64,000 bases of DNA, from positions 1,039,435-1,103,434 of the forward strand of contig NZ_JH584241.1 in NCBI RefSeq assembly GCF_000241485.1, written 5' to 3'. Each line of letters begins with the position of its first letter. Within the stretch, counting starts at the first letter, position 1. Source of the stretch: Sphingomonas sp. PAMC 26605. GTDB lineage: Bacteria; Pseudomonadota; Alphaproteobacteria; Sphingomonadales; Sphingomonadaceae. Under the pieces are notes generated by a model. The model was given only the letters and a program-made list of their open reading frames with translations. It ran no database searches and had not been told where the DNA came from. The position numbers and the translations under genes were made by a program. Positions 50 to 43,478 of the stretch are shown one piece after another.

Positions 50-523
50 TTACTCGGCGTGCGCCTTCAAAATCTTCCCCGGGGTACGCGGCGGCTCGCC
101 CTTCGGCAGCGCGTCGACATGCTCCATGCCCGACGTGACCTGACCCCAGACGGTGTACTGGTTGTCGAGGAAGCGCGCATCGTCGAAGCAGATGAAGAAC
201 TGGCTGTTCGCCGAGTTCGGATCCTGCGCCCGTGCCATCGACGCGGTGCCGCGGACGTGCGGCTCCTTCGAGAATTCGGCGGGCAGGTTCGCATGGTTCT
301 TCGAGCCGTGCATGCCGGTGCCCGTGGGATCGCCGCCCTGCGCCATGAAGCCCGGGATCACGCGGTGGAACACGACGCCGTCATAGAAGCCGGCATTGGC
401 GAGCTCGGCAATCCGCGCGACGTGCTGCGGCGCGAGATCGCCGCGCAGCTTGATGACGACGTCGCCGCCCCCACCATTGCCGGTGTCGAGCGTCAGCGTG
501 AGGGTTTCGGGAAGATCGGCCAT
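50..523 (-). CDS. Peptidylprolyl cis-trans isomerase, cyclophilin type
   Basis: 157-residue single-domain cyclophilin that catalyses proline cis-trans isomerisation during protein folding. The core FHRVIPGFMAQGGD is at residues 52-65, with the catalytic arginine expected at about R54, and ANSQFFI is at 105-111. Both are cyclophilin signatures. There is no signal peptide, so it is probably cytoplasmic (PpiB-like). The ATG start is supported by the full domain beginning at once. It is divergent from mgtE and appears monocistronic. The C-terminus ends shortly after the domain, as is usual for bacterial cytosolic cyclophilins. Confidence 0.95.
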   Translation of the reverse strand: MADLPETLTLTLDTGNGGGGDVVIKLRGDLAPQHVARIAELANAGFYDGVVFHRVIPGFMAQGGDPTGTGMHGSKNHANLPAEFSKEPHVRGTASMARAQDPNSANSQFFICFDDARFLDNQYTVWGQVTSGMEHVDALPKGEPPRTPGKILKAHAE

Positions 524-671
524 CGGGACACTCCTGGATTGGGGGACGCGCCGCCCTAACGAGGTGGCGCACGGCTGGCAAATCGCCCGCCGCCGCCAAG
601 CCCAACGAAGCGGCGTTGGCTTTGTTGCCGCACGCCGCTAGACCGCCCCCGATAACAGGCCAAGGAGGTCC

Positions 672-30151: not shown

Positions 30152-30655
30152 TCAGCGCGGCTCGGGCGCGGTACGCTGGACATAGGTGGCGACGCGCGCG
30201 ACGATCTGGTCGGCGACGATCTGCGACAGCCGCTCGAGCGCGGTGTCCTCGGCGGCAATCGTCGCATATTCCGAATTGACCGCGTCGATGCCCGCGTCCG
30301 ACCCGGCGGTGGCGTCGAGCAGCACCGACCCGTTCGACAGGTCGACCAGCTGATAGCGCGCGCGCAACGTCCGGCGCTCGCGCGAGATGGAGTTGTCGCG
30401 ATTGACGCCGAGCCCGGTGATCTGGTCGTCGAGCTTGATCTCGAGCCGGTAGCGCGGCGTCGCCTGCGCGTGGAGCCGGTCGCGCAGCGCGTTGCCCATC
30501 ATCCAGCCCGATTTGCCTTCGATCGGCCCGACTTCGATCTGCGTCAGCCCGCTGGCGACGGTGCCCGAACCGCCGCCCGAATAGAGCGGATGCAGGCCGC
30601 AGCCCGCCAGCGCGAGCGCGGAGAACGGCACGAGCAAGGCAAGCCGCCGCATCAT
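30152..30655 (-). CDS. lptE: LPS-assembly lipoprotein LptE
   Basis: 167 residues. The signal peptide [19 protein letters not shown] has a lipobox (LAGC) followed by the GLHPLYSG typical of LptE. It plugs the LptD barrel in the outer membrane for LPS export. Its ATG overlaps the leuS stop (ATGA), so leuS-lptE-holA form a coupled operon as in E. coli. Confidence 0.93.
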
Positions 30656-33378
30656 GCGACGATGTTCACGAGACGATCGGGCACGACGATGACCTTCCGG
30701 GGGGCTTTGCCTTCGAGGATGCGGACGATCTTGTCCGAGGCGAGCGCTGCGGCCTCGACCGCATCGCTCGGATGGCCCTTGGGCATGGTGAGCGTGTCGC
30801 GCAGCTTGCCGTTGACCTGCACCGCGATGGTGACCTCGTCCTCGACCAGCAGCGCGGCATCGACCGCGGGCCAGGGCGCGTCGGCGATCAGGCCTTCGTT
30901 CCCCGCCGCGGCCCAGGCCTCTTCGGCAAGGTGCGGCGCCATCGGCGCGACGAGCCGCATCAGCGTGGCGATCGCGGTGTCGCGCGAGGCCGAGGGCTCG
31001 GCGCGTTCGATCGCGGCGGTCAGCTCGTACAATTTGGCGACCGCCTTGTTGAAGCTCAAAGCCTCGATATCGAGCGCGATGCCGGCGATGCTCTGGTGGA
31101 GCTTGCGGTCGAGCGCGGCGTTCTTCGCACCGCCTTCGCCTGCACGCTCGCCGTCGAACAGCCGCCACAGCCGCTGGATGAAGCGCCACGAGCCTTCGAT
31201 CCCGCTCTCGCTCCACGGCAGATCGCGCTCGGGCGGCGAATCAGACAGCATGAACCAGCGCGTCGCGTCGGCGCCGTACTGATCGACGATGCCGGTCGGG
31301 TCGACTGTGTTCTTCTTCGACTTCGACATCTTCTCGACGCGGCCGACGGTGACCGCTTCGCCGGTCGCCTTCTCGGTCCAGCCGTCGCCGCTGCGGACGA
31401 TATCGTCGAGCGAGAGCCAGAGCGGCTTGGTGATGCTGTCGACGCCGTCGCTGCCGAGCTCGGTGACCTGGCGGCTATAGGTCTCGTGCGTGACCATGCC
31501 TTGCGTGAACAGGCCGGCGAAGGGCTCGGCCACGTCGAGCAGCCCGATATGCTTCAGCGCACGCGTCCAGAAGCGCGCGTAGAGCAGGTGCAGGATCGCA
31601 TGCTCGACGCCGCCGATATATTGCGCCACCGGCAGCCACTTTTCCGCGACGGCGCGGTCGAACGGCTTGTCCTTCGGCTGGCTGGCGAAGCGGATGAAAT
31701 ACCACGACGAATCGACGAAGGTGTCGAGCGTATCGGTCTCGCGCCGTGCCTGCCCGCCACACGACGGGCACGCGACATGCTTCCACGTCGGATGCCGATC
31801 GAGCGGGTTGCCGGGGATGTCGAACGACACGTCCTCGGGCAGCACGACGGGGAGCTGGTCCTTGGGCACCGGCACCGCGCCGCACGCGTCGCAATGGATG
31901 ATCGGGATCGGCGTGCCCCAATAGCGCTGGCGGCTGACGCCCCAATCGCGCAGGCGGAACACGGTCGAGCCCGTGCCCCAGCCCTCGCCTTCGGCACGCT
32001 GGATGACCGCGCGCTTGGCGTCCTCGACGTCCATGCCGTCGAGGAAGTGCGAGTTGACGAGCGTGCCGGGGCCGGTCGCGGCCTCAGTGCCTTCGAACAC
32101 GGGGTCCGTCACGTCACCGTCAGAGACGACGCGGCGCACCGGCAGATCGTATTTCCGCGCGAAATCGAGATCGCGCTGGTCGTGCGCGGGAACGCCGAAC
32201 ACCGCGCCAGTGCCGTATTCCATCAGCACGAAGTTCGCGATGTAGACCGGCAGCTGCCAGTTCGGATCGAACGGATGCGACGCGGTGATGCCGGTGTCGA
32301 AGCCGAGCTTCTCCTGCGTATCGAGCTCGGCCGCGGTGGTGCCGCCGCGCTTGCACAGCGCTATGAACTCGGCCGCGGCGGGGTTCGTGGCGGCGAGTGC
32401 CTGCGCGATCGGGTGATCGGCGGCGACAGCCACGAAGCTGGCACCGAAGATCGTGTCGGGGCGGGTGGTGAACACCTCGACCGACGCAATCCCCCTCCCG
32501 CTTGCGGGAGGGGTTAGGGGTGGGCTCGCGCTATCCGCGTCAGCTTCCGTTGAAAGCGCGCGCCCACCCCCGGCCCAGTTCGGGGTCGGATGTGCCCCCG
32601 GCACATCCTCGACAGCGCGGGGCGCTGTCGACCCCGAACTCGCGAGCGGGAGGGGAGCAGAAGAAGAAGACAGCGAGAACCGGAACGTCAGCCCGCGGCT
32701 GCGCCCGATCCAATTCTCCTGCATCAATTTGACCTTGTCGGGCCAATGCTCGAGCCCATCCAGGCCCTCGAGCAATTCATCGGCAAAGTCGGTGATCTTG
32801 AGGAACCATTGCGACAGCTTGCGCCGCTCGACCAGCGCGCCCGAGCGCCAGCCGCGCCCGTCGATGACCTGCTCGTTGGCGAGCACGGTCATGTCGACCG
32901 GATCCCAATTGACCGAGCTTTCCTTGCGATAGACCAGGCCCGCCGCGAACAAATCGAGGAACAGCGCCTGCTCGTGCCCGTAATAGTCGGGCTCGCAGGT
33001 CGCGAGCTCGCGGCTCCAGTCGAGCGCGAAGCCCAGCCGCTTGAGCTGCGCCTTCATCGTCGCGATATTGTCGCGCGTCCAGCCGCCGGGGTGGACATGC
33101 TTTTCCATCGCGGCATTCTCGGCGGGCATGCCGAAGGCGTCCCACCCCATCGGGTGGAGCACTTCCATCCCCGTCATCCGCCGATAGCGCGCGAGCACGT
33201 CGCCCATCGTGTAATTGCGGACATGGCCCATATGGATCTTCCCCGACGGATAGGGGAACATCTCGAGCACATAAGAGCGCGGCTTGGTCGAGTGATCGTC
33301 AGCGGCAAAGGTGGCGCGGTCGTCCCAAACCTTCTGCCAAGCCGCGTCCGCCTTCAGCGCATTGAAGCGTGACGCCAT
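30652..33378 (-). CDS. leuS: Leucyl-tRNA synthetase with an in-frame repeat insertion
   Basis: 908 residues, about 50-60 longer than usual. Class I signature [12 protein letters not shown] is at 43-54 and KMSKSKKN near 684. The editing CP1 domain has [13 protein letters not shown], and the zinc-type insert [11 protein letters not shown] and CPSCGG. Residues ~242-296 ([20 protein letters not shown] onwards to TPPASGRG) have no counterpart in the family. They are encoded by a structured palindromic element at 32492-32655. The insertion falls in the loop between the strands LTFRFSL and [10 protein letters not shown] at the entrance to the editing domain, where extra residues are likely tolerated. 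Confidence 0.95.
32492..32655. repeat. Composite palindromic element inserted in leuS
   Basis: Terminal inverted repeats CCCCTCCCGCT (32492-32502) and AGCGGGAGGGG (32645-32655). Inside are a 10-bp hairpin at 32492-32513, a 9-bp pair 32517-32525 with 32562-32570, and a 12-bp stem 32577-32588 with 32629-32640. The 12-bp stem encloses two hairpins, at 32589-32607 (8 bp) and 32610-32630 (9 bp). Such nested structure is typical of a mobile non-coding element, not of coding sequence, yet all of it is translated. Confidence 0.88.
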
Positions 33379-41801: not shown

Positions 41802-41935
41802 GATCTGTGTCCCGATGTTCGCTGTCTGTGCCGAGATTCATCGCGCGCGGCGGGTTCGACGTCAAGGCTTTGCGCATAGGCCTTCGAGGCTATGCGGGCT
41901 GGCGAGCGGCCGGACGAGGCGCTACAGCAGACGGC

Positions 41936-43153
41936 ATGGACACAGCAGACGTCATCATCCTCGGCGGCGGACTCGTCGGCAGCGCGCTCGCCGTGGCGCT
42001 CGACACGCATGGGCTCAGCGCGATCGTCATCGACATTGCCGATCCGGCGGTGATTCTTGCCGCAGGCTTCGACGGCCGCGCCTCGGCGATCGCCGGCGCG
42101 CCGTGGCGGATGCTGCAGGCGATCGGCGTCGCCGACCGGCTGACCGAATTCGCCTGCCCGATCCAGGGGATCCGCGTCAGCGACGGGCTGGAGCCCGGCG
42201 CGCTCGATTTCGAGCCCGAGCCGGGCGACGGTGCGCTCGGCCATATGGTCGAGAATCGCAAGCTGCGCGCGGCGCTGTTCGAGGCGGCGTCGGCCGCGCG
42301 CAATGTCGACGTGCGGATGCAAACGCGCGCGGTGTCAGTCGAGCGCGGCGCGGCCGGTGTCACGCTCACGCTCGATTCGGGTGCGGTGATCAAGGCGCCG
42401 CTGCTGATCGCTGCCGAGGGCCGAAACTCGCCGACGCGCGAGGCGGCGGGGCTGCGCGTCGCGCGCTGGAGCTATGACAATGCCGCGATCGTTACGTCGC
42501 TGCACCACGAATACAGCCACGAGAACATCGCGTTCGAGATCTTCTACCCCGACGGCCCGTTCGCGATCCTGCCGCTCAACGACGACGAACAGGGGCATCG
42601 CTCGTGCATCGTCTGGTCGGTGACGCACGACCAGGCGCCCGGGATGATGAAACTGTCCGATCGCGGCTGGCTCGCCGAGGCCGACAAGCGCATCGGCGGC
42701 TTCCTTGGCAAGCTCGGGCCGCTCGGCGCGCGGATGAGCTATCCGCTCGGCTTCCACCATGCCGCCAGGATCGTGTCGGACCGGCTCGCGTTGGTCGGCG
42801 ACGCGGCGCACGGCATCCATCCGATCGCGGGCCAGGGCGTCAATGTCGGCTTCCGCGACGTGGCGACGCTGGTCGAGGTGCTGGTCGACGGCAAGCGCAC
42901 CGGGCTCGACCTCGGCGACCCGCAACTGCTCGCGCGCTACGACCGCTGGCGCAGCCTCGACACCTTCATGGTGGCGGCGGCGACCGACGGCCTGACGCGG
43001 CTGTTCGGCATTCCCGGCAAGACCGCCAATGCGGTGCGGCGGATGGGGCTGTCGACGGTGCAGCGCGTGCCGCCGCTCAAACGCCGCTTTATCGCCGAGG
43101 CGCGCGGCGAGAGCGGGGATGTGCCGAAACTGTTGCAGGGGATAACGGTTTAG
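41936..43153 (+). CDS. UbiH/UbiF/COQ6 family FAD monooxygenase
   Basis: 405 residues. The FAD-binding VIILGGGLVGSALAVAL is at the N-terminus, LLIAAEGRNSPTRE is the GD-like segment, and LALVGDAAHGIHPIAGQGVN is the second FAD motif. It hydroxylates the ubiquinone ring; which position cannot be told from sequence alone. The ATG at 41936 is chosen for the standard N-terminus. It is followed by a repeat-filled intergenic region. Confidence 0.92.
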   Translation: MDTADVIILGGGLVGSALAVALDTHGLSAIVIDIADPAVILAAGFDGRASAIAGAPWRMLQAIGVADRLTEFACPIQGIRVSDGLEPGALDFEPEPGDGALGHMVENRKLRAALFEAASAARNVDVRMQTRAVSVERGAAGVTLTLDSGAVIKAPLLIAAEGRNSPTREAAGLRVARWSYDNAAIVTSLHHEYSHENIAFEIFYPDGPFAILPLNDDEQGHRSCIVWSVTHDQAPGMMKLSDRGWLAEADKRIGGFLGKLGPLGARMSYPLGFHHAARIVSDRLALVGDAAHGIHPIAGQGVNVGFRDVATLVEVLVDGKRTGLDLGDPQLLARYDRWRSLDTFMVAAATDGLTRLFGIPGKTANAVRRMGLSTVQRVPPLKRRFIAEARGESGDVPKLLQGITV

Positions 43154-43478
43154 GCTCGCGACGGCAGCGCTCGCGTCAGCGTCGATTGGGTTCGCGCAGA
43201 GGCGCGGAGGACGCAGAGGCGAGTGTTGCGAGGTACGCGCCCGACTCGCATAGCGCTTCCCCGGCGACGGCCGGGGCCCAGTCGAGATGGCCGCGCGGAT
43301 CGAACGCACCGGGAGACCAGGAAGTGTTGCGCTCCTGGGCCCTGGGCCCCGGCCTTCGCCGGGGAAGCGCTTCCAAAAGTGCGATAGGGGTGTTGCCCAA
43401 GAGGCTAGGCGCAACCGCTCTGCGTCCTCCGCGCCTCTGCGCGAACCGATCTACCGCAGAACCGCCTGGCGCGCCCGA
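43154..43478. other. Intergenic region filled by nested palindromes
   Basis: 325 nt between convergent genes with no gene. Most of it is taken up by the nested inverted repeats at 43189-43447. Open frames crossing it are low-complexity products of the repeats. Confidence 0.7.
43189..43447. repeat. Nested inverted repeats
   Basis: Outer arms 43189-43218 and 43418-43447 are perfect over 30 nt (GGTTCGCGCAGAGGCGCGGA start). Inner arms 43253-43281 and 43342-43370 match in 28 of 29 positions (GCGCTTCCCCGGCGACGGCC start). The inner pair appears inserted within the outer one. The inner arm resembles the other CCCCGGC-type repeats in this window. Confidence 0.9.

Follow-up and report, generated by a model that had tools for sequence, protein, structure and literature searches.

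In-frame palindromic inserts in the leucyl-tRNA synthetase of Sphingomonas and DUF559 nucleases as candidate agents of their spread

Introduction

In-frame insertion of palindromic elements into protein genes is best known from Rickettsia. A 64,000-nucleotide stretch of the genome of Sphingomonas sp. PAMC 26605 (the window, to which coordinates refer unless a C1 position is given) holds a leuS gene in which such an element is read through as part of leucyl-tRNA synthetase (LeuRS). This locus raises the question of what the element is, how an essential enzyme accommodates it and what could have carried it there. We examined its anatomy, its occurrence in the genome and the genus, and the genes that have the same kind of ends.

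Results

Anatomy of the leuS insert

The features of the locus are as follows.

30652–33378, minus strand: leuS, leucyl-tRNA synthetase, 908 amino acids, the insertion host; a single open frame with Pfam matches to tRNA-synt_1, the LeuRS editing domain and the anticodon domain, and with PDB LeuRS matches
31993–32484, minus strand: Pfam LeuRS editing domain match (PF13603, residues 299–462), starting directly after the insert
32490–32670, ends approximate, minus strand: probable extent of the whole inserted element including a TTCTTC-type tail, from the empty site of the nearest relative (G031), the structure model and tail statistics
32492–32513, no strand assigned: element A, intact terminal hairpin CCCCTCCCGC/GCGGGAGGGG, from an inverted-repeat search and 81 genome-wide hairpins at up to three mismatches
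32517–32570, no strand assigned: centre of element A, comprising linker and central stem (32517–32535/32552–32570), from the inverted-repeat search and matches in other copies
32577–32640, no strand assigned: second palindrome, B, situated within A's second hairpin, from the inverted-repeat search and comparison with C1:527020
32641–32655, no strand assigned: element A, the one arm left of its second terminal hairpin, from the repeat search

A first-pass annotation of the window had proposed a structured palindromic element translated in frame within LeuRS, and this was borne out: the frame is open throughout, and the segment 32492–32655 folds to −74 kcal/mol as single-stranded DNA (z −9.75) and to −127.8 as leuS-sense RNA (z −9.26), values matched by 0 of 200 dinucleotide shuffles in each case. 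The nested hairpins of that description were recovered together with its 12-bp stem, which, as read from the sequence, pairs 32577–32588 with 32629–32640 and closes hairpins at 32588–32608 and 32609–32631 to form palindrome B. The terminal inverted repeats had been put at 11 nt; they are there, but extend over 15 nt at 93% complementarity (32492–32506/32641–32655). The central stem is 19 nt long at 89%. The layout of A is a hairpin, a G-rich linker, a variable centre, a C-rich linker and a second hairpin, and the leuS copy is a composite, with B sitting within one hairpin of A. At C1:527020, PAMC 26605 has A with B, G031 has plain A and a second relative (G022) has nothing, which suggests that B entered a pre-existing A. 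A known RNA family was rejected as an identity for the element: the five Rfam matches with E values of 1 or less all fell below the gathering score.

In the protein, 73 residues replace a 15-residue loop of G031, a gain of 58 amino acids where about 55 had been estimated. In the predicted structure, based on 27 sequences and with a mean pLDDT of 82.7, the encoded residues lie between strands 226–236 and 299–304, residues 239–242 and 244–295 being below pLDDT 50 and modelled as disordered. Alignments with two PDB LeuRS structures end at residue 240 and restart at 300, the insert having no counterpart there. Taken with the start of the editing domain at residue 299, the model and the alignment gap indicate that the insert forms a loop in the turn at the entry to the editing domain, as the first-pass annotation had placed it. 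The loop is probably disordered, to judge from the model, and the turn seems to tolerate it. The closest named LeuRS matches are from Sphingomonas.

Dispersal in the genome and beyond

Copies of the element were sought across the PAMC 26605 genome and were found in number, intergenic sites included. BLAST returned 104 pieces, and the hairpin pattern CCCTCCCGC..GCGGGAGGG occurred 81 times at up to three mismatches, compared with no occurrence of a reversed control pattern. Doublet, tail and tag counts are based on the 75 of these 81 hairpins that were located in the sequence read. Forty-two of the 75 make up 21 opposed pairs, or doublets, spaced 73–90 nt apart. TTCTTC-type tails lie beside 26 of the 75, against 47 of 3000 control positions, and the leuS element with such a tail probably spans about 32490–32670.

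Elements of type A were present in 65 of 101 genomes of the genus. The same A+B composite as in PAMC 26605 lies in leuS of G022, and Sphingomonas sp. TREG-RG-20F-R18-01 also has this composite in leuS. The A hairpin was further found on three plasmid records (Novosphingobium, Qipengyuania and Sphingopyxis), where 18–22% of the query matched.

Three palindromic elements of PAMC 26605 contain runs of N (C1:769380–770266, 788185–788951 and 2697760–2698641), two of these gaps having identical sequence on either side; such repeats seem to be where the assembly breaks. We considered whether distant opposed hairpins delimit an autonomous transposon of about 0.75–0.95 kb and rejected this: of the pairs at 747–1092 nt, four contain N runs and two span separate elements. 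Elsewhere in the window, an intergenic palindrome of about 260 nt (43188–43447), behind the open reading frame at 41807–43153, has an outer 30-nt inverted repeat that encloses two inner inverted hairpins of CCCCGGC type.

In-frame copies in other genes

A codon-usage test of 52 element places in PAMC 26605, three of them without data, flagged six as in frame, one of which was an artefact of an N run. The remaining five were accepted after reading, and their Pfam domains agree: leuS, valS, dnaE, mfd and a gene that we take to be dnaE2. Copies thus occur both in frame in conserved protein genes and between genes. Relatives carry comparable inserts. In carA of two of them (L193 and L204), palindromic inserts with differing peptides lie at the same place between two domains; an RNase R gene of a relative has one as well, and the gene for the glycyl-tRNA synthetase beta subunit in G199 (L201) holds three in one frame. 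At its dnaE site, G022 has a different palindrome in frame, which by reading resembles the CGTC type. The idea that element frames are unusually open was rejected. On average 3.77 of six frames were open, compared with 3.54 in shuffles, a level explained by composition (23 elements, one containing N being set aside), so that survival in frame requires no special design.

We traced the flanks of 24 PAMC 26605 sites in G031 and G022 and examined eleven sites in detail. Element A is missing from valS in both relatives, and from mfd and four intergenic sites (C1:168646, 527020, 567122 and 2109161) in G022. At C1:1283750 the doublet of PAMC 26605 corresponds to a single hairpin in G031. Some sites are filled in relatives too, for example the presumed dnaE2 in G031. 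At C1:1799510 a longer element with a DUF559 gene is missing from G031, while the matching flanks in G022 enclose a DUF559 gene. The empty-site comparisons with G031 and G022, whose flanks have diverged, revealed no clear target-site duplication, and no movement was observed. Beside genes that are presumably trp genes (L248 and L313), PAMC 26605 has a DUF559 element and G031 a different palindrome pair, by reading similar to a CGTC REP.

The leuS turn as a hot spot

Queried with the insert and its flanks, 293 of 295 genomes of the genus gave a match. We read 64 leuS genes, and since these were selected partly for insert matches, the 32 that carry a palindromic insert at the site are a floor for the 295 genomes and 32/64 is not a frequency. 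Thirty of the others have short loops and two (G003 and G145) have long loops, which match no DUF559 end and were left out of the palindromic count. The 32 inserts comprise 19 of family 1, two composites, two of family 1 in another frame or orientation, seven of family 2, one of family 3 and one of family 4, and all keep an open frame. Between them, the genomes have palindromes of at least four families in the leuS turn. Also left out of the 32 was G264, whose leuS (L194 and L225) has a family 1 insert and, in the assembly, a frame broken just before it, through sequencing error or true damage.

These results alter the first-pass picture in several respects. In-protein elements had been called unusual for this group, and the 32 occupied leuS genes, with their four families, contradict this. 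The peptide had been said to have no LeuRS counterpart, which is true of the two solved structures but not right in general, since many LeuRS of the genus carry an insert here. Nor is the insert specific to the strain, G022 having the same composite while the sister genome G031 is empty. The element is neither universally conserved nor confined to leuS, as shown by the empty nearest relative and the copies elsewhere.

In a quickly built tree of these 64 proteins, made with the loop removed and no bootstrap, the distribution of empty and filled sites takes 14 changes, at least nine of them forced by supported branches, and all insert families together take 21. Near-identical LeuRS with differing inserts include the pairs G022/G281, G130/G117 and G034/G082. 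A preference for empty sites that form hairpins was tried as an explanation and rejected, because the turn in 30 empty genomes showed no excess of structure over the remaining leuS (median percentile 0.46).

DUF559 nuclease genes between matching ends

Among the 75 located A hairpins, the sole opposed pair at a spacing of 111–700 nt encloses a DUF559 gene. PAMC 26605 has ten such genes. Inverted repeats with hairpins enclose nine of them, in eight cases at a score of at least 16, and the tenth adjoins a scaffold gap. In the genus, a bracketing repeat of at least this score was found at 35 of 38 DUF559 loci, compared with 1 of 624 control intervals; in the class it was 14 of 26 loci, the other 12 being without, against 0 of 298. 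The loci tested were the best-scoring matches, the 38 usable genus loci include those of PAMC 26605, and L278 (genus), L303 and L309 (class) were dropped because their flanks were cut. Unselected sequence yielded one such arm pair in the 64-kb window and four in 662 kb.

The ends of the leuS inserts were compared with those of the DUF559 elements for 18 of the 34 long-loop leuS genes. Families 1, 2 and 4 gave matches of 26–41 nt, reaching 41/41 nt for family 1, 30/30 for family 2 and 38 nt at 95% for family 4. Only short matches were obtained for family 3 (16–25 nt) and for the composite's 5′ half (17–22 nt). As in the definition of a MITE, a short element with no coding capacity here has inverted ends in common with a longer, putatively mobile coding element, in families 1, 2 and 4.

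Element A occurs in 64 of 93 DUF559-positive genomes and in one of eight DUF559-negative genomes (p 0.003, a guide only, since the genomes are related); G006 has A matches and no DUF559 match. By their flanks, the 49 bracketed loci group into 25 clusters. All 14 A-ended loci belong to a single cluster, located between yqeY and dnaG in PAMC 26605, whose A-ended DUF559 element is at C1:2442637–2442942, and so probably represent one inherited site. Mapped on the nuclease tree, end type changes nine times over the 49 loci, compared with 24.0 in shuffles (0 of 200 as low), a strong fit, most of it coming from shared sites. With one locus per site (25 loci) there are seven changes against 10.2 (3 of 200 as low), a moderate fit of end type to the nuclease tree.

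At the yqeY–dnaG site of G031 (L315), a GIY-YIG nuclease gene (open reading frame 124–666, minus strand) lies within a 31-nt inverted repeat of other sequence. This genome has A elements although the GIY-YIG gene occupies the site, and other nucleases may play the same part as DUF559. In the limited collection of literature that we searched, no report linking DUF559 to palindromic repeats was found.

Discussion

Relation to known palindromic repeats

The first-pass annotation had likened the leuS insert to Rickettsia palindromic elements (RPEs). The comparison holds for behaviour, as the element lies in frame in conserved genes and between genes; its anatomy and the DUF559 genes point to another system. 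RPEs are palindromes of 105–146 bp, intergenic or in frame in conserved protein genes (Ogata et al. 2000, via the available part of PMC2229807), and an RPE-bearing guanylate kinase, described there as the sole product tested, had a changed activity but retained it. By these published descriptions, what sets the sphingomonad element apart is an apparently different sequence, its doublet of GC-rich hairpins and the end-matched DUF559 elements.

GTAG and CGTC REPs have also been found within genes, namely dnaE2 in some species, R. conorii dnaE, repair genes and tRNA synthetases, and recB of two Xanthomonas species has a REP insertion at about the same site (PMC3733652, available sections). The same sections describe the CGTC families as mainly alphaproteobacterial, sphingomonads included, and as having no associated transposase gene. 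The A hairpin differs from these in its long forms that encode DUF559 and in its tags: within 7 nt outside the stem, GTAG was seen at 0 and CGTC at 3 of 75 hairpins.

REPINs are inverted hairpin doublets in many copies, and the RAYTs linked to them are distinct single copies, each with its own hairpin family and with a phylogeny that largely follows the species (PMC3116915, as far as its available text goes). Opposed doublets are the repeat unit here as well, and the single site of the A-ended DUF559 loci recalls RAYT single copies that follow species phylogeny. RAYTs are tyrosine (Y1) transposases, whereas the gene linked to the present repeats encodes a DUF559 nuclease. Caulobacter VsrA is of this same family, being a Vsr-like DUF559 protein of the PD-(D/E)XK type; the available portion of the paper (PMC12907096) connects it with cytosine methylation and the SOS response and does not contain 'inverted repeat' or 'palindrom'.

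Alternative explanations

The likeness to REPINs in hairpin-doublet anatomy (PMC3116915, in part) invites the explanation that a RAYT moved the element and has since been lost from PAMC 26605. We rejected this as very improbable, because Y1_Tnp gave no match in the PAMC 26605 genome, whereas 5 of 14 control genomes were positive; in the genus it is found in 11 of 101 genomes, the element in 65, and the two are unlinked (element in 9 of 11 genomes with Y1_Tnp and 56 of 90 without, p 0.32). The DUF559 genes might instead be bystanders or passengers, around which hairpin repeats collect or which two copies trap, the true mobiliser being another gene or lost. The link is an association, the A-ended loci, all at one site, have the look of vertical inheritance, and G031 retains A elements with no A-ended DUF559 gene at yqeY–dnaG, all of which would fit such a role. 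Against it stand the matched inverted arms at both ends of the genes, in differing end families and at 35/38 and 14/26 loci, set beside the rarity of such arm pairs in unselected sequence. We regard the bystander role as unlikely, if worth keeping in view.

The changes at the leuS site itself could come mainly from recombination of leuS segments among strains after few original insertions. Many insert carriers do belong to one clade, and short tracts would be compatible with the data. Such exchange has to contend with the 14 empty/filled changes, at least nine of them forced, and the 21 over all families on the quick tree; with end families so different that descent from one insertion is impossible without replacement; and with the flanks of seven sister pairs that have different inserts, which are mostly about 82–100% identical per 60-base step and contain no clear divergence block at the insert. 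It is an improbable main source. A selected role for the insert in LeuRS function, for instance in tuning editing, would agree with the open frames of the 32 counted inserts and with the persistence of some forms in several related genomes. We find it hardly credible, given that unrelated palindrome families encode unrelated peptides, close relatives are empty and the loop is modelled as disordered.

A possible route of spread

The reading that we favour, and think probable from the sequence comparisons, is that of a small non-autonomous mobile element lying in frame in a tolerant LeuRS turn and mobilised by a DUF559 protein. Its unit is two opposed hairpins about 73–90 nt apart, and in the leuS copy one of the two contains a second palindrome. 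Insertion would be broad and mostly purged from genes, copies surviving in turns and linkers if the frame stays open. The longer elements with the same hairpin ends encode the candidate mobiliser, a Vsr-like PD-(D/E)XK nuclease of the DUF559 family, which may act at the hairpins and, as has been suggested for RAYTs with REPINs, mobilise the short forms in trans. More generally, Vsr-like DUF559 nucleases that stand alone, perhaps along with GIY-YIG nucleases, could be dedicated mobilisers of palindromic repeat families in Alphaproteobacteria, taking the place of the Y1 transposase; we put this forward tentatively, as a proposal that may well be right or wrong.

In a well-sequenced sphingomonad genus, a single turn of an essential enzyme is occupied by several element families, and because close relatives differ in the leuS insert, its rate, tolerance and effect can be measured. 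Spread by DUF559 would be a route perhaps new for repeats of this kind. If DUF559 nucleases do spread the repeats, a Pfam family of 'unknown function' gains a role and for repeat families with no known transposase there is then a candidate enzyme open to direct testing; such a nuclease system could account for REP families of this kind. Essential proteins would then repeatedly acquire new in-frame loops through a REP-associated nuclease system.
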